DNA of 64,000 nt from Acinetobacter cumulans (GTDB lineage: Bacteria; Pseudomonadota; Gammaproteobacteria; Pseudomonadales; Moraxellaceae): positions 248,001-312,000 of the forward strand of contig NZ_CP035934.2 in the NCBI RefSeq assembly GCF_003024525.3, in the 5' to 3' direction. Shown in pieces: positions 27,180 to 38,306 of this stretch (positions are counted from its first letter, which is position 1; the number at the start of each line of letters is the position of its first letter). The position numbers were made by a program, and so were the translations under genes. The notes below the pieces were generated by a model. The model was not told the origin of the DNA. It did not search any database and saw only the letters and a program-made list of their open reading frames with translations.

Positions 27180-28664
27180 TTAGGATGGACTGCGATAGGA
27201 CAAGGCTTCTGTTAAATGCGCCGTTTGAATCTGCTCGGCCTGTGCGAGGTCTGCAATGGTACGTGCAACGCGTAGAACACGATGATACGCCCGTGCCGAT
27301 AAATTGAGTCGTTGTTGGGCCATAGCCATGATGCTTTGCGCTGCCGTATCCAGCTGGGCAAATTGTTCTAATTGCTTAGGGCTAAGTGCCATGTTCACCG
27401 TGTTTTGCCGTTGTATTTGATATTCGTAGGCTTGTAATACACGTGCGCGAACTGTGGTCGAGTTTTCTACAGCTTGTTGATTATTTAACTCATGTGCATG
27501 TAGTGGTGGTACATCAATATGCAGATCAATGCGGTCGAGTAAAGGCCCAGAAATTCGATTTTGATAGCGTTTAATTGCATCGGGTGAGCACTGGCAACGC
27601 GCATCTTGGTTAAATGCATAACCACATGGGCAAGGGTTCATGGCAGCCACCAACTGAAAGTTGGCTGGAAAGGTAATTTGGCGTGATGCCCGTGAAATGA
27701 CAATCTCTTTAGATTCCAGCGGTTGCCTTAAAACTTCCAAGACTTTGCGGTCAAACTCAGGGAGTTCATCTAAAAAAAGCACTCCTAAATGTGCCAAGGT
27801 AATTTCCCCAGGTTTTGGGTTTGAACCACCTCCCACTAAGGCAATTGCAGATGCCGTATGGTGTGGGGCTCGAAAGGGGCGTTGTCCAAAGTGATGCTGA
27901 CTATTGGCGATAGAATAAATACTGGCGACTTCAATGTTTTCCTGCATATTCAGTGGCGGTAATATACTTGCCAAACGTGAAGCCAATAAGGTTTTTCCAG
28001 TGCCTGGTGGACCTTTAAACAATAATGAATGTCCACCTGCAGCGGCAATTTCGAGGGCACGTCGTGGACGAAGTTGGCCTTTAACATCGGCCAAGTCAAA
28101 ATTGTATTGACCTATTATGGATGTACTCGGTGCGGTGTAGGCAGTAATAGGTGCTTTTTGGGCCAGATGTGCACATACTTCATTTAAATGCCCTGCAGCA
28201 AAGACTTCAAAATTAGGGAGCTGCGCAGCCTCAGTGGCATTTTGTTGGGGCACAATGAGTGGATGTCCCAGTTGTTGGCAGGCAATAGCGATACTTAAGA
28301 TGCCTGTAATTGGGCGTAAATGGCCATCAAGCGCCAACTCTCCAACAAATTCTAGCCCTTCTGCAGCCTGTTCAGGCAATTGACCAGAGGCAATCAAAAT
28401 CCCTAAAGCAATCGGAAGGTCTAAACGAGAGCCATCTTTGGGGAGATCTGCTGGGGCTAAATTAATCGTTAGTCGCTTGTTTGGAAACTGAAAACCACTA
28501 TTGATAATGGCAGAACGGACGCGGTCTTTACTCTCACGAACAGCGGCTTCTGGTAGTCCCACAATAGTTAAAGAGGGCAAGCCTTGACTCAAATGCACTT
28601 CTACTTCAATTAAAGGTGCATGTAAGCCCAAGAGCCCTCGGGTATAGATTTTGGCAAAAGACAT
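27180..28664 (-). CDS. comM: ComM (YifB) Mg-chelatase-like AAA+ ATPase
   Basis: 494 aa, full length and uninterrupted. N-terminal ChlI/Lon-like domain (1-170), Walker A GPPGTGKT at 218-225, Walker B LGVLFLDELPEF near 300, the NPCPCGY/CQCSP cysteine cluster near 350-370 and a C-terminal Mg_chelatase C domain. ComM is a hexameric helicase that drives branch migration during natural transformation. In A. baumannii the gene is the usual landing site of AbaR-type resistance islands; this copy is intact. It is convergent with the TorF gene and downstream of ubiK. Confidence 0.95.
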   Translation of the reverse strand: MSFAKIYTRGLLGLHAPLIEVEVHLSQGLPSLTIVGLPEAAVRESKDRVRSAIINSGFQFPNKRLTINLAPADLPKDGSRLDLPIALGILIASGQLPEQAAEGLEFVGELALDGHLRPITGILSIAIACQQLGHPLIVPQQNATEAAQLPNFEVFAAGHLNEVCAHLAQKAPITAYTAPSTSIIGQYNFDLADVKGQLRPRRALEIAAAGGHSLLFKGPPGTGKTLLASRLASILPPLNMQENIEVASIYSIANSQHHFGQRPFRAPHHTASAIALVGGGSNPKPGEITLAHLGVLFLDELPEFDRKVLEVLRQPLESKEIVISRASRQITFPANFQLVAAMNPCPCGYAFNQDARCQCSPDAIKRYQNRISGPLLDRIDLHIDVPPLHAHELNNQQAVENSTTVRARVLQAYEYQIQRQNTVNMALSPKQLEQFAQLDTAAQSIMAMAQQRLNLSARAYHRVLRVARTIADLAQAEQIQTAHLTEALSYRSPS

Positions 28665-28730
28665 ATTGTTGTTCCATTATAGTGCGTTTTTTTTAATCAT
28701 TATGCGTCTGTTGCTGCACCTATTTGGTGC

Positions 28731-28958
28731 TTATTTTTTGTTCTGTAATTCTTTTTCGAGTTGCTCAACGTGTGCCAAGAGGGCATCTAAGCGTGAATTT
28801 GCATGATTTAAAGCTGTACGTTGGCGTTCAATCTCTGCTTGTGAGACCAAATCCATTTTGCTGACAGTTTCATTTAATAGTGCTCGTATATTGTGTTCAA
28901 TATCTTTTTTGGGTTGTTCAATTTGCTCAAGAATAGCTTGTAATAAGGTTTCAATCAT
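28731..28958 (-). CDS. ubiK: Ubiquinone biosynthesis accessory factor UbiK (BMFP)
   Basis: 75 aa from the ATG at 28958 (MIETLLQAIL); an in-frame start at 28997 would add 13 unrelated residues. The N-terminal half is an amphipathic helix; the C-terminal half is a trimeric coiled coil (VSQAEIERQRTALNHANSRLDALLAHVEQLEKEL). UbiK binds UbiJ and lipids to support aerobic ubiquinone synthesis. It precedes comM on the same strand and is divergent from glnK. Confidence 0.92.
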   Translation of the reverse strand: MIETLLQAILEQIEQPKKDIEHNIRALLNETVSKMDLVSQAEIERQRTALNHANSRLDALLAHVEQLEKELQNKK

Positions 28959-29175
28959 TTTATGTCTAATCCAATCATAAAATAGCGAGTGTAGCATTCA
29001 CACTGGTTCGGCTATAGCCTTCGGCCGATTATATCGTATGAATCGATACTTAAAATCGTAATTCTTATGGTAAAAACGTCTAATTTTCGCGTTCAAGACG
29101 CAATTAAACGTATAAAATAGGTTATACATAAGCTTCGTGTTCAAAGTTTCTATTTTCCCCCGACCTTAGTAACTT

Positions 29176-29191
29176 TGGCATGAAAATTGAA
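29176..29191 (+). promoter_or_regulatory. Candidate sigma-54 promoter for glnK-amtB
   Basis: TGGCAT-N5-TTGAA with the right spacing between GG (-24) and the -12 dinucleotide, but GA replaces the usual GC at -12. It is 41 bases ahead of the glnK ATG. Weaker than the TorF2 site; plausible because glnK-amtB is RpoN/NtrC-driven in many bacteria. Confidence 0.45.
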
Positions 29192-29196
29192 CATAA

Positions 29197-29571
<375 letters not shown>

Positions 29572-29633
29572 TTAATTGGCACGAAGTTTGCTGAGTACCT
29601 AATAACTCACAAAAACTAGGTTGGGGGATACGA

Positions 29634-31031
29634 ATGAAAAAGATGTTGCTTGCGCTCAGTCTATCTGGCGCACTCTTAGGCGGTTCTGTTGCGTGGGCTG
29701 AAGAAGCTGCAACAGCGCCGACACCTACAGAAGAAATTTCAGTTGTAGAAACTGAGGCTACTTCAGCGGCACCAGTCGCTGAAACCGTTGCACCGGTGGA
29801 AGTTCCACCAGCACCAGCAAAAGAAGAAGTAAAACTGGACACAGGTGATACGGCTTGGATTTTAGTGTCTACTGCACTTGTTTTATTAATGACTATTCCA
29901 GGTTTAGCATTATTCTACGGTGGTATGGTTCGTAAAAAGAACGTACTCAGCACTATGGCACATAGCTTTGTAGCAGCTGGCATCGTAAGCTTAACATGGG
30001 TTGTTATTGGTTATTCGCTCGCATTTAGCTCAGGAAATGCCTTCATTGGTGGTTTAGATAAAATGATGCTTTCAGGCATTACCACTGATGCACTCACAGG
30101 CACAATCCCTGAAATTCTATTTGTTATTTTCCAAATGACGTTTGCCATCATTACCGTTGCAATTATTAGCGGTTCGATTGCAGAACGTATGAAGTTTGGT
30201 GCATTCGTTGCGTTCATTACGCTTTGGAGTGTAATCGTTTATGCCCCAATTACACACTGGGTGTGGGGTGGTGGCTGGTTAGGTAACGATGGTGCGCTTG
30301 ACTTTGCTGGTGGTACGGTCGTTCATATTAACTCGGGTGTTGCAGGCTTAGTGGCTGCATACATGCTCGGTAAACGTATGGGGCTAGGTCGTGAATCTAT
30401 GGCACCACACAACTTAACTTTAACTGTGATTGGTGCAAGCTTAGTTTGGGTGGGTTGGTTTGGTTTTAACGGTGGTTCTGCATTAGGTGCAAATGGTTCA
30501 GCTGGTTATGCACTCGTGGTGACACAAGTGGCAGCAGCTGCAGCAGCTATTGCATGGCTCATCACTGAAAAAGTGGTTCGTGGTAAATCATCGGTACTTG
30601 GTGGTGCGTCTGGTGCGGTTGCAGGTCTAGTGGTGATTACACCAGCTGCAGGTTTTGTCACTGTAGGCGGTGCCTTAGCAATGGGCTTGATTGGTGGTGT
30701 AGTATGCTTCTGGGGTATTACCGCATTAAAACGCGTATTAAAAGCCGACGATTCACTTGATGCATTTGGTTTGCACGGTGTAGGCGGTATTGTGGGTGCG
30801 ATTTTGACAGCATTCTTTGCCAGCTCTTTCATCATGGGCGATAAAGCACCAACAGACGTGATGCATCAATTATGGGTACAAGTAGAAGGTGTACTTGCAA
30901 CCGTCGCTTACTCTGCAGTATTAACATTCATTATTCTTAAAGTGATTGATCTTGTGATTGGTATCCGCGTTGAAGCTGATGACGAACGCATGGGTCTAGA
31001 CTTAAGCCAACATGGCGAACGTGTAGAATAA
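29634..31031 (+). CDS. amtB: Ammonium transporter AmtB
   Basis: 465 aa. Signal peptide ends VAWAEEA, then an unusual Ala/Pro/Glu/Thr-rich periplasmic segment of about 45 residues before helix 1 (TAWILVSTALVLLMTIPGLALFY). The Amt family markers LFYGGMVRKKNVLST and the DFAGGTVVHINSGVAGLVAA signature are present, followed by GLHGVGGIVGAILTAFFA; the His of each belongs to the central twin-His pore. It imports ammonium/ammonia and is gated by GlnK. Start supported by GGGGGATACG. Confidence 0.96.
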   Translation: MKKMLLALSLSGALLGGSVAWAEEAATAPTPTEEISVVETEATSAAPVAETVAPVEVPPAPAKEEVKLDTGDTAWILVSTALVLLMTIPGLALFYGGMVRKKNVLSTMAHSFVAAGIVSLTWVVIGYSLAFSSGNAFIGGLDKMMLSGITTDALTGTIPEILFVIFQMTFAIITVAIISGSIAERMKFGAFVAFITLWSVIVYAPITHWVWGGGWLGNDGALDFAGGTVVHINSGVAGLVAAYMLGKRMGLGRESMAPHNLTLTVIGASLVWVGWFGFNGGSALGANGSAGYALVVTQVAAAAAAIAWLITEKVVRGKSSVLGGASGAVAGLVVITPAAGFVTVGGALAMGLIGGVVCFWGITALKRVLKADDSLDAFGLHGVGGIVGAILTAFFASSFIMGDKAPTDVMHQLWVQVEGVLATVAYSAVLTFIILKVIDLVIGIRVEADDERMGLDLSQHGERVE

Positions 31032-31074
31032 TAATTCGACATTATACTGATGATCTAATATCAATATATTGTGT

Positions 31075-31102
31075 AAAACAGCCCGAAAGGGCTGTTTTTT
31101 TT
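31075..31102 (+). terminator. Terminator after amtB
   Basis: AAAACAGCCC-GAAA-GGGCTGTTTT and T run, with a GNRA-like tetraloop. Confidence 0.95.
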
Positions 31103-31183
31103 CTATATGTTGCGTAATGCTCTACAAAGCTCAGAATTTTTGCTACACTCTGAGGCCATTCAAAATTGTTCAATTAACCCGCT

Positions 31184-31642
31184 ATGCATTGTCCATTTTG
31201 CAACGCTGCAGACAGTAAAGTGATTGATTCGCGCTTGGCTGCTGAAGGCTGTCAAATTCGCCGACGCCGTGAATGTATTTGTTGTGGCGAGCGTTTTACG
31301 ACTTTTGAAAGTTATGAAGTGGTTATGCCACGTGTTATTAAGTCAGATGGTAAAAATGAGCCTTTTGATGAGGCCAAATTAAGACGCTCATTGCTACATG
31401 CTTTACAAAAACGTCCCGTGACTCAAGAACAAATTGAAACCGTATTGAGTGACATTCAACTGCAAATTCGTCGTTTAGGCGAGCGAGATGTGAAATCACG
31501 AACCATTGGTGAAATTGTCATGCAGTCTTTATTTGCCTTAGATCATGTGGCTTATGTACGATTTGCATCGGTTTATCAAGATTTCCAAGATGTGGAAGCA
31601 TTTCGTCGTCAAATCGAACAGATGCAACACCGCGATCAGTAA
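31184..31642 (+). CDS. nrdR: Transcriptional repressor NrdR
   Basis: 152 aa, normal length. N-terminal zinc ribbon with Cys3, Cys6, Cys31 and Cys34 (MHCPFC and [12 protein letters not shown]), then an ATP-cone domain from about residue 49 ([24 protein letters not shown]). NrdR senses ATP/dATP and represses ribonucleotide-reductase genes. It is first in a tight cluster with ribD, 26 bases away, a grouping common in proteobacteria. Confidence 0.97.
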
Positions 31643-31668
31643 GTGAAAGATATAGGAATACGCACAAC

Positions 31669-32751
31669 ATGTCAGAGCTGAGCCCAGACCAAATATGGAT
31701 GCAACGTGCGATTGCATTGGCACAGCTTGGGCAATACTCGACACGCCCAAATCCCAATGTTGGTTGTGTATTGGTAAAAGACGGCCAGCAGGTGGGTGCA
31801 GGTTTTCATCCTAAAGCGGGGCAACCGCATGCAGAAGTGTTTGCCATGCGTGAAGCTGGCGCTTTAGCCCAAGGTGCGACGGCTTATGTGACTTTAGAAC
31901 CTTGCGCGCATTTTGGACGTACGCCTCCATGTGCCAAAGGTTTGGTTGAAGCAGGTGTTGCAAAAGTAGTTGTGGCTTGTCCAGACCCGAATCCATTGGT
32001 TGCGGGTAAAGGCGTTCAAATTTTAAAAGATGCGGGTATTGAGGTTGAAGTTGGGGTATGTGAAGCAGAAGCCCACCAGCTTAACTTGGGCTTTTTGAAA
32101 GCCATGGCGACAGGTCAGCCTTATGTACGTTTGAAAGTTGCATCGAGTTTGGATGGTCGTACCGCGATGGCTTCGGGTGAGTCAAAGTGGATTACAGGCC
32201 CAGAAGCACGCTTAGATGTACAACATTGGCGGGCAATTTCGGGTGTGGTCATTACAGGAATTGAAACGGTATTGGCGGATGATTGCCAGTTAAATGTACG
32301 CCAATTATCAGCAGATATAGATCTCAACACAGTTGTACAACCCAAGCGTTTAGTCTTAGACCGTCAAGGTCGCTTAGCTTTAACGGCTAAACTATGTGAA
32401 CAGCCTGAAACTTTAATGGTCATGGGGCCATATCGTCAGGAACTTGCAGATTTAGGTGTAGAACAAATCGAGGTTCAACCTTTAACGGATTTAATCTCGC
32501 TTCTTGCGCAGCAGTATCAAATTTATGACGTGTTGGTAGAAGCAGGTGCAACATTATCGACTGCCTTTTTACAAGAAAAACTGGTAGATGAAATTATTAG
32601 TTATGTTGCGCCGACCTTTTTAGGGTCGTCAGCACGTGCCATGTTTAATGCTGAATTTAGTGTGATGGCAGAACAACTTCGCTTTAAGCTCAAACATGTT
32701 GCCCAATTCGGTCAAGATGTTCGCTTGAGCCTTATTCCAGAGTCAGTATGA
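31669..32751 (+). CDS. ribD: Bifunctional riboflavin deaminase/reductase RibD
   Basis: 360 aa. N-terminal cytidine-deaminase-like domain with zinc ligands His54 (HAE) and Cys79/Cys88 (PCAHFGRTPPC); C-terminal reductase domain (RLKVASSLDGRTAM onward, with a late VEAGATLSTAF). It performs the two middle steps of riboflavin synthesis, turning the diaminopyrimidine phosphate from GTP into the aminouracil ribityl compound. Its TGA overlaps the methylase ATG (ATGA), so the two are translationally coupled. Confidence 0.96.
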   Translation: MSELSPDQIWMQRAIALAQLGQYSTRPNPNVGCVLVKDGQQVGAGFHPKAGQPHAEVFAMREAGALAQGATAYVTLEPCAHFGRTPPCAKGLVEAGVAKVVVACPDPNPLVAGKGVQILKDAGIEVEVGVCEAEAHQLNLGFLKAMATGQPYVRLKVASSLDGRTAMASGESKWITGPEARLDVQHWRAISGVVITGIETVLADDCQLNVRQLSADIDLNTVVQPKRLVLDRQGRLALTAKLCEQPETLMVMGPYRQELADLGVEQIEVQPLTDLISLLAQQYQIYDVLVEAGATLSTAFLQEKLVDEIISYVAPTFLGSSARAMFNAEFSVMAEQLRFKLKHVAQFGQDVRLSLIPESV

Positions 32752-34046
32752 GTACAGAGTCTACGTCTACGGTTTATCATAAACGTCGCCATGCAGCACG
32801 TACCACAGATGAATATCTTTTTCATCAATTGGTGCCGTACTTAGGGAACAAACGTCGTTTACTGCATTTGATTTTAGAAGCCCTTGAGCAAACAGGCACA
32901 TTGAATCGTGAAGATGGTCGAGCACCTATTTTTGCCGATTTTTTTGCAGGCTCAGGTGTGGTTTCACGCTTAGCACGACAAAATGGTTATCGTGTGATTG
33001 CCAATGACTGGGAACCATATAGTCATGCATTAAATAGCGCAGTATTATCTTGCGTTGAAGCACCTACATTTAAAGAATTGGGTGGCTATCAAAAAGCCAT
33101 TGATTATCTTAATCGCCTACCTGAAGTGAAGGGTTGGGTGACGCATAATTTGTGCCCGCGTAATGATGAGATTTACGATCCTAGCCGTGACCGTTTGTTC
33201 TTTAAACGCCGTAATGGTATGCGTATTGATGCTATTCGCCAGCAAATTGCCACTTGGCAAACTCAAGGTGCAATTAATGACGTTGAAATGTCGGCACTGT
33301 TGGCGCCTTTATTATATTCGGCAAGTTTTGTATCAAATACTTCAGGGGTGTTTAAAAGCTTCCACCATGGTTGGGGCGGTAAAACACAGACTGCATTAGA
33401 GCGTATTGAGTCTTTACTGTGGTTAACGCCAAGTCGTTTTTGTGAATTGGGTGATCCGAAAAAGCCTGCCGCTGAGATGTGGTGTGTTGATGCACAACAT
33501 TTGGCAAATCAAATGAGTGGCTTTGAAGTGGATGTGGCTTATTTAGATCCACCTTATAACCAACATGCGTATAGTTCTAACTATCATGTACTTAATGCGC
33601 TGACTTTGTGGGATCAGGTAGATTTACCTACACCAGATACCAAAGGCTTTAAAAGTGGTATTGACCGTGCATGGCGTAAAGAGCGTCCGAGTCCCTATAA
33701 CTCGTCCAAGCATGCTCAAGAAGCTTATGAAAAATTAGTCGAAACAATTAATGCACGTTATATTTTGACTAGCTATTCAACGGATGGAAATATTAGTGCG
33801 ACAGACTTGTTGCAAGCCAATTTAAAACGTGGCCGTGTGACCTTATTAACACAAGATGTACCACGTTATCGTGTGAGTAAACAGCGTCAGTCTGAGCGTG
33901 CACGTGTACTGGAATTTATTGTGATTACAGATACGCATGCAAAGTCAGGCCCACCAATACGCCAATTACTTGGGCAGTTGCATCATTTTGCAGAGCTTGG
34001 TGGGGTAGATACAACCGATGTCAGCACACAATTGGCATTGTGGTAA
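32748..34046 (+). CDS. Solitary N6-adenine DNA methyltransferase (D12/Dam-like class)
   Basis: 432 aa. The motif order X-I-IV is the alpha class: VPYLGNKRRLL (29-39) aligns with the PxxGxK start of D12 methylases, FADFFAGSG (62-70) is the SAM-binding motif I with an acidic ND at 86-87, and YLDPPYNQ (265-272) is catalytic motif IV. The region between I and IV is long and probably holds the target-recognition domain. There is no restriction gene nearby, so it is an orphan modifier. An orphan Acinetobacter methylase (AamA, A1S_0222) is described as acting on GAATTC; this looks like that gene from memory, which is unverified. Same operon as ribD and ribE. Confidence 0.85.
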   Translation: MSTESTSTVYHKRRHAARTTDEYLFHQLVPYLGNKRRLLHLILEALEQTGTLNREDGRAPIFADFFAGSGVVSRLARQNGYRVIANDWEPYSHALNSAVLSCVEAPTFKELGGYQKAIDYLNRLPEVKGWVTHNLCPRNDEIYDPSRDRLFFKRRNGMRIDAIRQQIATWQTQGAINDVEMSALLAPLLYSASFVSNTSGVFKSFHHGWGGKTQTALERIESLLWLTPSRFCELGDPKKPAAEMWCVDAQHLANQMSGFEVDVAYLDPPYNQHAYSSNYHVLNALTLWDQVDLPTPDTKGFKSGIDRAWRKERPSPYNSSKHAQEAYEKLVETINARYILTSYSTDGNISATDLLQANLKRGRVTLLTQDVPRYRVSKQRQSERARVLEFIVITDTHAKSGPPIRQLLGQLHHFAELGGVDTTDVSTQLALW

Positions 34047-34070
34047 AACAAATACAATTTAGAGAAGCGT

Positions 34071-34730
34071 ATGTTTACAGGCATTATTGAAAGTTTAGGT
34101 CAGGTCGAAAGTATCCAAAATGTTGGGGGCGATGTACGTTTACGCATTCAAACTGATTTGGATATGTCGGATGTGCATTTAGGCGATTCAATCGCAACCA
34201 ATGGGATCTGCTTAACCGTCATTGATTGGGGCTCAAATTGGTATGCAGCCGACGTTTCACGTGAAAGTTTGAATCGAACAACTTTGGGTGCATGGCAAGT
34301 AGGCCAGCCTGTGAATGTTGAAAAAGCAATGCTTCCGACCACACGTTTTGGCGGGCATATTGTCTCTGGTCATGTTGATGTCGTTGGTGAAATTACCTTA
34401 GTACGCTCAGATGCACGCTCATTGTATTTTGAAGTGACTGCACCTGCTGAAGTGGCAAAATATTTAGCAGAAAAAGGTTCAATTACAGTCGATGGTATTA
34501 GCCTGACCATCAATCATCTCAATGGCAATGTATTGAGTTTAAATTTAATTCCACATACTGCTGAGCGTACCAATATTGGTACATGGAAAGCAGGCACGCG
34601 TGTGAATTTAGAAGTTGATGTGTTGGCACGTTATATTGAGCGCTTATTGCTGGGAGATAAAGCAGCAGAAGCCAAGGCAGAATCTAAAATTAGTCTCGAT
34701 TTTTTGGCTGAAAATGGTTTCCTAAGATAA
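34071..34730 (+). CDS. ribE: Riboflavin synthase alpha chain
   Basis: 219 aa made of two lumazine-binding repeats (1-97 and 98-200). The start MFTGIIESLGQVESI is diagnostic, and GDSIATNGICLTV in repeat 1 matches KGSITVDGISLTI in repeat 2. It dismutates two 6,7-dimethyl-8-ribityllumazine molecules to riboflavin. It follows the methylase by 24 bases with AGAAG before the ATG and ends the operon at a terminator. The symbol ribC is used for the same gene in some genomes. Confidence 0.96.
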   Translation: MFTGIIESLGQVESIQNVGGDVRLRIQTDLDMSDVHLGDSIATNGICLTVIDWGSNWYAADVSRESLNRTTLGAWQVGQPVNVEKAMLPTTRFGGHIVSGHVDVVGEITLVRSDARSLYFEVTAPAEVAKYLAEKGSITVDGISLTINHLNGNVLSLNLIPHTAERTNIGTWKAGTRVNLEVDVLARYIERLLLGDKAAEAKAESKISLDFLAENGFLR

Positions 34731-34750
34731 AAAAATAAAGCGGTAAAAAC

Positions 34751-34785
34751 GAACAGTTTGATTGAAAAATTGGACTGTTTTTTTT
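34751..34785 (+). terminator. Terminator after ribE
   Basis: AACAGT / ACTGTT stem with a longer loop and nine T. Weaker stem than most terminators here. Confidence 0.7.
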
Positions 34786-34841
34786 ATTTTAGGTCATAAT
34801 GCGCTCGTGATGAACGTGATTGCAGAAATTGGATTGGGTTG

Positions 34842-35390
34842 ATGATTGATTTTTTACTGAATTTAGAACAATGGTTGCCCATGCTGTTAGAGCAATACGG
34901 TTTGTGGATTTATGCCATTTTATTTTTGGTGATTTTTGCAGAAACTGGTTCAGTATTTATGTTTTTCTTGCCAGGAGACAGTTTGTTGCTGGCGATTGGT
35001 GCGCTGTGCTCAACAACAGAACTAATACATTTACATTATATGATCCTACTTTTGTTTATTGCATCGGTATTGGGATATAGCGTGAATTACTACACGGGAA
35101 GTGTATTGGGACTCAAATACTTCAATCAGCATAATCGTTACTTTAAGCCAGAATATTTAGCAAAAACCAATCGTTATTTTATGAAGCATGGTGGCAAAAC
35201 CATTTTAGTCGCACGTTTTGTTCCGTTTGTACGTTCATTTGCACCTTTTGCAGCAGGTTCGGCGCACATGAATTTTGCCATGTTTAGCTTTTATAATGTG
35301 GTAGGTGGTCTGATTTGGATTGGGTTGCTATTGGGAATTGGTTATGGCTTAGGTCATACAGTCTCGGCGGTGGCGGAGCTGATTCCCTAA
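34842..35390 (+). CDS. DedA family membrane protein
   Basis: 182 aa from the ATG at 34842; the TTG directly before it is in frame but less likely. The family pattern is present: FAETGSVFMFFLPGDSLLLAIGAL near 30-55 and the conserved KTILVARFVPFVRSFAPFAAGSAHM near 120-145. About 5-6 helices. DedA proteins are flippases for undecaprenyl phosphate or phospholipids and support envelope integrity and drug tolerance. Which lipid this one moves is not shown. Confidence 0.92.
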   Translation: MIDFLLNLEQWLPMLLEQYGLWIYAILFLVIFAETGSVFMFFLPGDSLLLAIGALCSTTELIHLHYMILLLFIASVLGYSVNYYTGSVLGLKYFNQHNRYFKPEYLAKTNRYFMKHGGKTILVARFVPFVRSFAPFAAGSAHMNFAMFSFYNVVGGLIWIGLLLGIGYGLGHTVSAVAELIP

Positions 35391-35415
35391 CGGATTGGTG
35401 ACGGATCAAAAAATT

Positions 35416-35442
35416 GAAAGCCTGCAATGTTGCAGGCTTTTT
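35416..35442. terminator. Bidirectional terminator after dedA
   Basis: AAAGCCTGCAA / TTGCAGGCTTT with T run, between convergent genes. Confidence 0.93.
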
Positions 35443-35448
35443 ACTGTA

Positions 35449-35664
35449 TTAATGTTTGATGACTTGCAGTGATGCAGTGGCATCAGACGTCATGTGGTCA
35501 ATATTTTGAATTGAAAATAACCCTTTTTCAGCTTCACGTGTTAAAAAAATACGAATGGAGTGAAAGTCGGAGTGGCTCAGCCATAGTGAGCGTGCCGAAA
35601 TTTCCCAAGTTTCCCCAGTCGGCAATGCCGAAATTTTTTGAGTAATGTCGCTTAAGATGTCCAT
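35449..35664 (-). CDS. Small uncharacterised protein
   Basis: 71 aa from the ATG at 35664, chosen because AGGAG lies about 8 bases before it; the longer in-frame start at 35727 adds unlike sequence. Content is soluble and mixed alpha/beta, with GETWEISARSLWLSHSD and IRIFLTREAE. No family recognised. It is divided from the upstream coiled-coil gene by a GGCCAG-N8-CTGGCC hairpin (35689-35708). Confidence 0.65.
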   Translation of the reverse strand: MDILSDITQKISALPTGETWEISARSLWLSHSDFHSIRIFLTREAEKGLFSIQNIDHMTSDATASLQVIKH

Positions 35665-35688
35665 TTTAGACTCCTGATGAAAGGATGT

Positions 35689-35708
35689 GGCCAGGCTTAA
35701 GGCTGGCC
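35689..35708. repeat. Near-palindrome before the small hypothetical gene
   Basis: GGCCAG-N8-CTGGCC with CTTAAG at the centre. No T run; could be an attenuator-like hairpin or an operator. Confidence 0.4.
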
Positions 35709-35782
35709 TATGAACATCTTGTTGCAATCATGTGTCAGTTTGATGACAAATAATCTATCCCAAAGAATTTTTTAAGTTGATT

Positions 35783-36412
35783 TTAAGATTCAATTTTTTT
35801 ATCTGAAAAATTTGAATTTTTTAAAATATATTCAATTTCTTCTTGGGCTGCAGCTTTGAGTTCTGCACGAAATGCATTGACTGACTTTTCAATCAGGCTG
35901 TCTGCCTCAAGCTCTAAACGAACACGAACACTTTCTAATTCTGACAACATGGCATGGTCAGGTATAGATAAGTTTTGGGCAAAATTGAAGGCAATACCTT
36001 CAGGGTTTTTATGATAGCGTGCCGTATAAGTCTGAATTTCACGGTCAATATTTTGACGAATCAGCGCGAGGGTTTGGCTCTGCTCAGCATATTGGCGAAT
36101 TTCATCTTGTTTCAGTCGTTCAACATAAGCCAATTGTTCAGCACGTTTTTTATCCAGTTTTCTTTCAAGTGCGAGCTGTTTACGCAAACGTGCTTCTTCA
36201 ATTAATTCCGCTTTGCGCTTGGCATAAGCTTCTTCAATAATCTCAAAGGACATTTGCTGTTGCTTTTGGTCGGTGATCAGCCATTCCTGAATTTGACTTT
36301 CTGGCTTCAGCACATCACAGATGCGGCTGAGGTCATCAATAAAGGTCTGACGTACAGCATCAGGCACGTTTAACCAGCGCTGTTTAAAATCGGGACCAAC
36401 ATTTAATGCCAC
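35783..36412 (-). CDS. Uncharacterised coiled-coil protein downstream of holC
   Basis: 209 aa. N-terminal 50 residues are globular; about 60-130 is a highly charged Lys/Glu/Arg helix (YAKRKAELIEEARLRKQLAL and onward) likely to be a coiled coil, then another helical segment at 155-200. No signal peptide or membrane segment. No family recognised. It lies 36 bases behind holC on the same strand, so it is probably the third gene of a pepA-holC operon. This placement is the only functional hint. Confidence 0.75.
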   Translation of the reverse strand: MALNVGPDFKQRWLNVPDAVRQTFIDDLSRICDVLKPESQIQEWLITDQKQQQMSFEIIEEAYAKRKAELIEEARLRKQLALERKLDKKRAEQLAYVERLKQDEIRQYAEQSQTLALIRQNIDREIQTYTARYHKNPEGIAFNFAQNLSIPDHAMLSELESVRVRLELEADSLIEKSVNAFRAELKAAAQEEIEYILKNSNFSDKKIES

Positions 36413-36448
36413 TGCAGCATCTCCTTGTATGAGTAATTAAAAGTCGTG

Positions 36449-38306
<1,858 letters not shown>

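Follow-up and report, generated by a model that had tools for sequence, protein, structure and literature searches.

An orphan adenine methylase in the riboflavin locus of Acinetobacter cumulans and arrays of its published site in the origin region

Introduction

In Acinetobacter cumulans, a gene encoding a DNA adenine methylase lies between ribD and ribE, which raises the question of what such an enzyme marks and why it is kept among riboflavin genes. The locus was analysed within a window of 64 kb (the whole stretch of DNA studied, numbered from its first letter). An earlier note on this DNA had proposed that the position of the gene ties methylation to flavin or nucleotide supply. Both the gene and the methylome of its A. 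baumannii counterpart, aamA, are already published, and the new element described here is the set of site arrays in the origin region. The literature searches gave no published account of conserved arrays of AamA sites and no work explaining how chromosome initiation is limited in Acinetobacter.

Results

Gene content of the locus

The order nrdR-ribD-methylase-ribE and the overlap of the methylase with ribD, both described in the earlier note, are confirmed by the coordinates and profile matches in Table 1. The methylase ATG lies within the ATGA at 32748–32751, the TGA of which is the ribD stop codon, and the gap between the methylase and ribE is 24 nt, as that note had stated. The gene product contains a PF02086 (MethyltransfD12) domain (E-value 1.1E-23, 84.8 bits against a cut-off of 22) together with FxGxG and DPPY motifs, and the Pfam match settles its predicted class as D12. 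A search of solved structures with the protein gave no match at E ≤ 1. A scan of 10 window proteins located from 27180 to 38297 identified no restriction gene; the ORFs at 29233–31031, which we take to encode GlnK/AmtB, and at 35449–35727 lie outside that set. The methylase is thus an orphan among its scanned neighbours, in agreement with the earlier note. Terminator-like matches total five against a shuffle mean of 3.7 (sd 1.9), which is no excess, so transcription of the four genes as a single unit is plausible at most.

Table 1. Predicted features of the A. cumulans nrdR-ribD-aamA-ribE locus, in window positions
Feature	Position	Strand	Evidence and remarks
Terminator-like stem-loop 5' of nrdR	31075–31098	+	Consensus match only; likely left operon boundary
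nrdR, transcriptional regulator of ribonucleotide reductase genes	31184–31642	+	TIGR00244, 198.5 bits (cut-off 124.65)
ribD, bifunctional deaminase/reductase of riboflavin synthesis	31669–32751	+	TIGR00326, 374 bits (cut-off 156.35)
aamA ortholog, D12-class DNA adenine-N6 methyltransferase, 432 aa	32748–34046	+	PF02086
FAGSG codons, SAM-binding FxGxG motif	32943–32957	+	Translation; role as given for AamA in the available part of PMC10483419
DPPY codons, adenine methylase catalytic motif	33546–33557	+	Translation; role as given for AamA in the available part of PMC10483419
ribE, riboflavin synthase	34071–34730	+	TIGR00187, 208.9 bits (cut-off 156.6)

Conservation of the methylase

The methylase exhibits 90% identity, at 100% query coverage, to an A. 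baumannii protein adjoining ribD, and its homology and place at the nrdR-ribD locus identify it as the ortholog of an already known gene product, AamA (A1S_0222) of A. baumannii ATCC 17978. It was found in 117 of 119 Acinetobacter genomes and, at the same locus, in 4/4 genomes of the sister genus g10 (Alkanindiges). In the two methylase-negative Acinetobacter genomes (G030 and G115) the RibD matches are weak and partial; since RibD is also missing, gene loss was rejected in favour of likely assembly gaps. Among 54 loci, taken as the closest matches from homologue searches, the ATGA overlap with ribD is kept in 53, and the ribE start lies 21–34 nt downstream in 43 and 64–92 nt downstream in three, being undetected by the motif used in the other eight. 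Between Acinetobacter and Alkanindiges the methylase is 83% identical, compared with 64–67% for the neighbouring RibD and 79–80% for DnaA. Vertical inheritance, which the earlier note had argued from the operon position, is borne out by these counts: the order of the locus is conserved across Acinetobacter, and absence from most relatives is not what is seen. The comparison supports a vertically inherited orphan methylase fixed in place across both genera, which would have settled between ribD and ribE before they split.

Other origins were considered. A methylase of a type II restriction-modification system is expected to be patchily distributed and accompanied by a nuclease, and this was rejected given the distribution (117/119), the fixed locus (53/54) and the lack of a nuclease among the neighbours scanned. 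Four AamA matches in A. baumannii records are filed as plasmids and two as ‘Acinetobacter phage MD-2021a’, at 90% identity; a phage or plasmid origin was rejected because the other listed matches (11 from among 84 further plasmid records, and 9/9 phage records) are only 25–31% identical.

Recognition site and published aamA work

The in vivo site of AamA in ATCC 17978 is the 12-bp palindrome TTTRAATTYAAA, as given in the part of PMC10483419 that was available. The earlier note had predicted GAATTC instead, and this is rejected: according to the available part of PMC10287943 none of the strains tested gave specific detection of GAATTC methylation, and the window has nine copies of GAATTC, fewer than the mean of 18 in shuffled sequence. 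The same note had named a methylase mutant that loses no 6mA motif as evidence against its proposal; loss of the motif is described for the aamA mutant (PMC10483419). Among the motifs given for the A. junii 65 methylome there is none like TTTRAATTYAAA.

According to the same part of PMC10483419, region 1 of ATCC 17978 contains 29 AamA-dependent 6mA in the first SMRT run and 28 in the second, and region 2 (dnaA/rnpA) contains nine in each, so that the two regions hold 29 + 9 of 59 and 28 + 9 of 41 methylated adenines, respectively. In the first run 2,062 6mA were called even in the aamA mutant, so its background is high. The mutant has 706 genes down and 94 up, the methylated sites being mostly extragenic, and AamA is argued there to be a general expression regulator. 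Expression of dnaA is raised, with 1.5–2.4-fold given for rnpA, dnaA and pitA, and the mutant grows more slowly and forms filamentous cells in R2A (PMC10483419). Neither growth nor dnaA recovered on complementation with aamA, and the complemented strain likewise shows filaments, so these effects may be indirect; a 1.6-fold change of the gene called ‘mltA’ in that report was rescued by the plasmid copy (PMC10483419). Neither ‘DnaA box’ nor ‘purK’ appears in the available text of PMC10483419.

Site arrays in the A. cumulans genome

The 3.71 Mb A. cumulans genome contains 37 TTTRAATTYAAA sites, compared with 19 for a reversed control motif. A neighbour within 500 bp is present for 23 of the 36 chromosomal sites, against a maximum of six in 2000 random placements. 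The arrays are located at oriC, downstream of gyrB and, foremost, upstream of mltB. The mltB array spans roughly 250–650 bp, usually between purK and mltB, and lies 19–20 kb from dnaA in both the A. cumulans genome and an A. baumannii record; in A. cumulans it features a single strict DnaA box. Another A. cumulans array (C1:3233153–3233569) falls within a coding frame and has been retained at five other loci, where the protein is only 43–52% identical. Site-to-site steps of 20, 25, 30 and 36–37 bp are preferred in the arrays; helical phasing was rejected as a reading of these peaks, which shared ancestry could explain.

Arrays across Moraxellaceae

Close pairs of sites were found in 64/66 Acinetobacter genomes, 4/4 Alkanindiges and 0/129 other Moraxellaceae, that is in 68/199 genomes compared with 1/199 for the reversed control motif. 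The arrays are nearly restricted to the two genera carrying this aamA, and as methylase and arrays go back to a single common ancestor, their co-occurrence counts as one phylogenetic event and not many. A three-site pattern search of genome contigs identified 106 stretches, the best 80 of which belong to Acinetobacter (77), Alkanindiges (2) and a Bacteroidales MAG (1). These 80 contain 83 clusters of at least three sites, some contigs being counted twice; 75 are at purK/mltB, and 71 of the 75 have a strict DnaA box. The array in the A. baylyi DSM 14961 record (locus L319) comprises 10 sites and 2 DnaA boxes. Fewer than four sites lie beside purK in 8/39 Acinetobacter genomes. Four of these eight were followed in full: in both of those in which purK is relocated (G094 and G102) the array remains upstream of mltB, and G020 and G165 have no array at all. 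Across six genomes, including A. nosocomialis and A. pittii, the sites are 91% and the DnaA boxes 89% identical, compared with 66% for the spacers; in these alignments sites and boxes are the more durable parts of the arrays.

In A. baumannii VB958, oriC contains nine adenines in the six motif variants tabulated in PMC10483419, and the array contains 27, or 29 when TTTGAATTCAAA is added, a variant consistent with the consensus and absent from the table in the available part of that report. In a second A. baumannii record the array comprises 12 sites (25 adenines) instead of 14. Motif II is present as a single copy in the array of 8/8 A. baumannii-group genomes, and its one copy in ATCC 17978 lies within region 1 (PMC10483419). 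Judged from motif content in these other A. baumannii genomes, regions 1 and 2 are most likely the mltB array and oriC.

DnaA boxes and oriC

The DnaA box and IHF counts cover 34 of the 35 arrays with at least four sites, G050 (four sites) being left out. A strict DnaA box is present in 33/34 arrays, and the 61 boxes over 22.0 kb correspond to 2.77 per kb, approximately 245 times the A. cumulans genome background of 0.0113 per kb. In 61/66 Acinetobacter genomes, and in 0/133 others including Alkanindiges, a site lies no more than 30 bp from TTATCCACA in one orientation (control 0/199). The presumed IHF consensus was found in only 5/34 arrays, which is not an enrichment, and a closely spaced inverted DnaA pair in 1/34.

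At least one site is present in the oriC regions of 36/36 Acinetobacter, 4/4 Alkanindiges and 1/19 others, and a further oriC (G077) has five. Of the 99 sites in the 36 Acinetobacter regions, 77 have a strict DnaA box no more than 60 bp away. The mean motif count at oriC is 2.75, compared with 1.31 for the reversed control, which is raised too, so part of this signal reflects the AT-rich origin sequence. SeqA was found in 0/60 Acinetobacter genomes, the E. coli control being positive, and Dam is reported absent from Acinetobacter in the available part of PMC10287943.

Discussion

AamA, an orphan methylase, probably marks the DnaA-box arrays of the origin region and does not serve flavin metabolism, resembling Dam without SeqA. 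In anatomy it is like the Dam/SeqA system of E. coli: the sites of an orphan adenine methylase are grouped at oriC, interspersed with DnaA boxes, and dnaA expression is altered in the aamA mutant (PMC10483419). Unlike in that system, the published site is not GATC, there are 37 sites in the A. cumulans genome and SeqA is absent. The mltB array is similarly like datA/DARS of E. coli in being a mostly noncoding, DnaA-box-bearing locus that lies outside oriC at a conserved position, whereas these arrays consist mainly of methylase sites, are 19–20 kb from dnaA, and generally lack both an IHF site between the boxes and the inverted pair. The alphaproteobacterial CcrM is also an adenine methylase of the orphan kind that is inherited vertically, and it has a role in the cell cycle. 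Its GANTC sites occur genome-wide, unlike those of AamA, which are few and concentrated in arrays.

The view in PMC10483419 would make AamA a conventional epigenetic regulator of transcription, in which promoter-proximal methylation tunes a set of genes that includes mltB, dnaA and the trmD operon, the arrays being no more than dense promoter elements. The breadth of the expression change, the mostly extragenic sites and the changes at site-adjacent genes agree with it, as do the place of the main array, which stays upstream of mltB when purK is elsewhere, and the plasmid-rescued change of ‘mltA’. This is nevertheless unlikely to be the main role, since the methylated adenines (29 + 9 of 59, 28 + 9 of 41) fall in just two places, one array is kept within a coding frame, and DnaA boxes occur in nearly every array. 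We consider it more doubtful still that the arrays bind another origin-region protein, of nucleoid or segregation type, with AamA only protecting or modulating them. Dense palindromes with preferred steps in AT-rich, origin-proximal DNA would suit such a protein, but the steps may reflect shared ancestry, and it is this 12-bp motif that AamA reportedly methylates in vivo. To our knowledge, no nucleoid or segregation protein of this array-binding kind has been described.

That the operon position couples the amount of methylase to the supply of flavin or nucleotides, as in the earlier note, is very improbable: the ATGA overlap and the co-location with nrdR favour it, but a tight overlap by itself yields co-expression and not flavin regulation, and the 64 kb window around aamA contains no TTTRAATTYAAA site, so the proposed tie is not upheld. 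Least probable is a CtsM-like mark of self DNA for natural transformation, for although the orphan status, the RAATTY core (the sequence that CtsM methylates) and natural competence are common to Acinetobacter and Campylobacter and AamA is 28.2% identical to a C. jejuni Dam protein (available part of PMC10483419), the 28,482 RAATTY motifs of a C. coli genome (99.74% detected as methylated; PMC8627207) stand against very few 12-bp sites, too sparse in 3.71 Mb to label random fragments, and RAATTY is not over-represented in the window (168 versus a shuffle mean of 168.6).

The marking of DnaA-box arrays by AamA suggests that the enzyme may help control the timing of chromosome copying. AamA would methylate TTTRAATTYAAA, rare in the genome and concentrated beside DnaA boxes; passage of the fork would leave the array sites hemimethylated together, and this could alter DnaA binding or recruit a putative reader, limiting re-initiation and dnaA expression. 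The role of Dam and SeqA in E. coli would thereby be filled with different parts. If the arrays are indeed how initiation is limited, origin marking by methylation evolved at least one more time, using another enzyme, another site and another reader, and the slow growth, filaments and broad expression change of the aamA mutant would share a single root in replication control.

A fuller version, to which we give slightly less than an even chance, is a Dam/SeqA-independent epigenetic replication clock in Acinetobacter and Alkanindiges, formed by the AamA-marked array, oriC and a putative reader. The fork would hemimethylate a dozen or more sites simultaneously, and the reader would sequester DnaA or the origin. 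Relatives in the genera g13 and g5 possibly work alike, with tandem RAATTY runs at oriC serving their distant AamA homologs, which are 48–57% identical.

Gene order and conservation of the methylase

The gene order nrdR-ribD-methylase-ribE claimed in the earlier note is confirmed by the coordinates in the window, as are the overlap of the methylase ATG with the ribD stop and the 24-nt spacing to ribE. The claim that no restriction enzyme is nearby also holds for the ten window proteins scanned (27180-38297), and the methylase is the sole match among the four proteins compared with the PADLOC models. On sequence comparison, the methylase is an ortholog of AamA, a D12-class adenine-N6 DNA methylase, being 90% identical in A. 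baumannii, where it also lies beside ribD. Some 1.7 kb beyond ribE, the opposite strand carries holC (36449-36856), the gene for DNA polymerase III chi, which overlaps pepA.

Operon genes in the window and clusters of AamA sites on the A. cumulans chromosome (C1)
Feature	Position	Location	AamA sites
nrdR	31184-31642	window	
ribD	31669-32751	window	
methylase (aamA ortholog)	32748-34046	window	
ribE	34071-34730	window	
AamA cluster	end of C1 (dnaA starts C1:1)	oriC	3
AamA cluster		downstream of gyrB	3
AamA cluster	C1:3408463-3408727	between purK and mltB	8
AamA cluster	C1:3233153-3233569 (L094:7154-7570)	inside methyltransferase-like coding frame	6
AamA cluster	C1:3209442-3209564		3

Across Acinetobacter, the methylase is present in 117 of 119 genomes, and the ATGA overlap is found in 53 of the 54 loci that were the closest matches of the methylase searches. 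At these loci the distance to ribE is 21-34 nt in 43 and 64-92 nt in three; ribE was not detected by the motif used in eight. The methylase adjoins ribD in all four genomes of the sister genus Alkanindiges and is 83% identical to that of A. cumulans there, versus 64-67% for RibD and 79-80% for DnaA. The motif identified ribE at 15 of 28 non-Acinetobacter ribD loci (11 of them at most 82 nt and four 307-700 nt away from the ribD match) and found none at the other 13, which include all four from Alkanindiges. Since ribE directly follows ribD in many relatives, the methylase appears to have been inserted between them. Two further genera (g5 and g13) carry AamA relatives at 48-57% identity, located in these fragmented assemblies on contigs other than that of ribD; the relative in G148 is split in two pieces.

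Two records named 'Acinetobacter phage MD-2021a' (CAKLQF020000026.1, CAKLQH020000023.1) contain ribD and aamA (annotated fokIM, 90% identity) and are probably bacterial chromosome contigs. Chromosomal DNA of A. baumannii, with ribD-aamA or with dnaA/purK, is also filed among plasmids, as CP040042.1, CP035931.1, NZ_CP077849.1, NZ_CP104448.1 and NZ_CP064203.1, the last three of which are 3.7-4.1 Mb in length.

Published target site and mutant phenotypes

GAATTC, the target predicted in the earlier note, showed no specific methylation in any strain tested according to PMC10287943, which describes partial methylation of TTTRAATTNA and TNTNAATTNAAA in all strains tested. Motif methylation depends on AamA: deletion of aamA in ATCC 17978 abolished every 6mA call at TNTNAATTNAAA, and the proposed site is TTTRAATTYAAA (PMC10483419). 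In the first run of that study, 2,062 6mA lacking a motif were also called in the mutant. The mutant exhibits dnaA, rnpA and pitA expression raised 1.5-2.4-fold, and grows slowly with filaments in R2A; complementation restored neither growth nor dnaA, and filaments were present in the complemented strain too (PMC10483419). Effects on motility and a phage-susceptibility hit, the latter needing confirmation according to its authors, are described in PMC7997844 and PMC10249906. The motif list for A. calcoaceticus (now A. junii) 65 contains no such motif (PMC5364224).

AamA-site arrays and DnaA boxes

The A. cumulans genome encodes 37 AamA sites versus 19 matches to the reversed motif, with no AamA site in the 64-kb window (C1:248001-312000). 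A neighbour within 500 bp is found for 23 of the 36 chromosomal sites, versus at most six in 2000 trials of random placement. The gene beside the main array, a lytic transglycosylase gene by its PF13406 match, is termed mltB.

Closely spaced AamA sites, with 2-32 bp between the members of a pair, were detected in 64 of 66 Acinetobacter and all four Alkanindiges genomes, and in none of the 129 genomes from the rest of the Moraxellaceae; the control with the reversed motif was positive in one of 199 Moraxellaceae genomes. A three-site pattern searched against genome contigs returned 106 stretches, the best 80 of which belong to Acinetobacter (77), Alkanindiges (two) and a Bacteroidales MAG (one). 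These 80 loci contain 83 clusters of at least three sites, a count that some contigs enter twice. No more than 1.5 kb separates purK or mltB from 75 of the clusters, which have 4-15 sites each (mean 9.8); five others adjoin gyrB, oriC accounts for two, and the last is the Bacteroidales match. Fewer than four sites are located beside purK in 8 of 39 genomes. With purK elsewhere, G094 has a 14-site array approximately 1.35 kb upstream of mltB with two DnaA boxes near, and G102 an 8-site array starting approximately 0.13 kb upstream of mltB with three. No array was found in G020, which has two AamA sites at oriC, or in G165, where the dnaA match is interrupted by the contig end; the coding-frame locus of G236 carries three AamA sites.

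Conserved AamA-site arrays with DnaA boxes are present at and near oriC. The strict DnaA box TTATCCACA is found in 33 of 34 purK-side arrays (30 Acinetobacter, four Alkanindiges; G050 left out), with 61 boxes in 22.0 kb, or 2.77/kb versus 0.0113/kb in the A. cumulans genome. Of the 40 strict boxes on its chromosome, 8 have an AamA site no more than 100 bp away (3 of 35 when oriC is set aside); 20,000 random placements never gave so high a value in either case. When TTATCCACA was searched in one orientation with an AamA site no farther than 30 bp away, 61 of 66 Acinetobacter genomes were positive and 0 of 133 others, Alkanindiges included; the reversed motif gave 0 of 199 in the same test. In the one Alkanindiges array inspected, the boxes are in opposite orientation within the array, or farther away. 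Near serC, a lone A. cumulans AamA site and a strict DnaA box are separated by 2 bp (C1:1112046-1112068, L102); the version in G048, next to serC, has two sites and a DnaA box (L362).

The origin itself contains at least one AamA site in 36 of 36 Acinetobacter (truncated G015 dropped), four of four Alkanindiges and 1 of 19 other regions. The Acinetobacter mean is 2.75 sites per oriC versus 0.01 when resampled, and G077, outside the 36, has five. At Acinetobacter oriC (loci L193-L229), matches to the reversed motif AAAYTTAARTTT are likewise common, averaging 1.31 per region, so part of the signal there is AT-rich origin sequence; AAAYTTAARTTT at oriC is possibly a DNA-unwinding element. Tandem RAATTY runs are observed at oriC in g13 and g5, the carriers of AamA relatives, clearly in two of four genomes: G130 (L243; 13 versus 2.9 expected, 0/500 first-order resamplings) and G122 (L240; 11 versus 5.2, 4/500). 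The excess is absent in G137 (264/500) and not clear in G158 (52/500). RAATTY is somewhat raised too in G125 of genus g8 (30/500), where no AamA relative was found.

Probable correspondence with methylated regions of ATCC 17978

CP040042.1 (A. baumannii VB958, filed as a plasmid) carries dnaA, purE-purK and the transglycosylase gene, and therefore looks chromosomal. Its oriC contains four palindromes and one TATGAATTTAAA, giving nine adenines of the six variants in PMC10483419, and its array contains 14 palindromes and one TATGAATTCAAA, giving 29, two of which are in TTTGAATTCAAA, a consensus-fitting variant absent from the table of PMC10483419 (27 by that table). These numbers equal the 6mA adenines of densely methylated regions 2 (nine) and 1 (29) of ATCC 17978; the second run gave nine and 28. 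TATGAATTCAAA occurs once in that chromosome, within region 1, while TATGAATTTAAA is assigned to regions 2 and 6, with rnpA and dnaA named in region 2 (PMC10483419). One copy of TATGAATTCAAA is also present in the array loci of all eight A. baumannii-group genomes examined. Judging from these other A. baumannii-group sequences, region 1 would be the purK-mltB array. In NZ_CP077849.1, also from A. baumannii, the array comprises 12 palindromes with 25 adenines and oriC again has nine adenines, so array content varies among strains.

Proposed role in replication timing

A passing fork would hemimethylate AamA sites, which could time the access of DnaA. The roles of Dam/SeqA in E. coli and of CcrM serve as comparison. 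A search for SeqA that detected it in E. coli found it in none of the 60 Acinetobacter genomes covered. Further comparisons are CtsM (PMC8468864, PMC8627207) and datA/DARS (PMC4585315, with general knowledge). PMC10483419 interprets AamA sites as switches of expression; beyond it, searches of open-licence PMC papers listed none tying aamA to DnaA boxes or arrays. Identity of the array as a datA is rejected by the test made, as the IHF consensus is present in only 5 of 34 arrays.

Conservation of sites within arrays

Array columns from six genomes, including A. nosocomialis and A. pittii, are 91% identical at AamA sites, 89% at DnaA boxes and 66% in spacers, a contrast somewhat overstated by an alignment anchored on repeats with columns picked by exact motif. 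Sites and boxes are again above spacers in the remaining four sets. For the array inside the coding frame, sites are kept in five other loci (L109, L125, L126, L129, L130) where the protein is 43-52% identical. This fast-evolving, methyltransferase-like host protein is encoded beside an amine-oxidase gene, and the array is kept in distant genomes.
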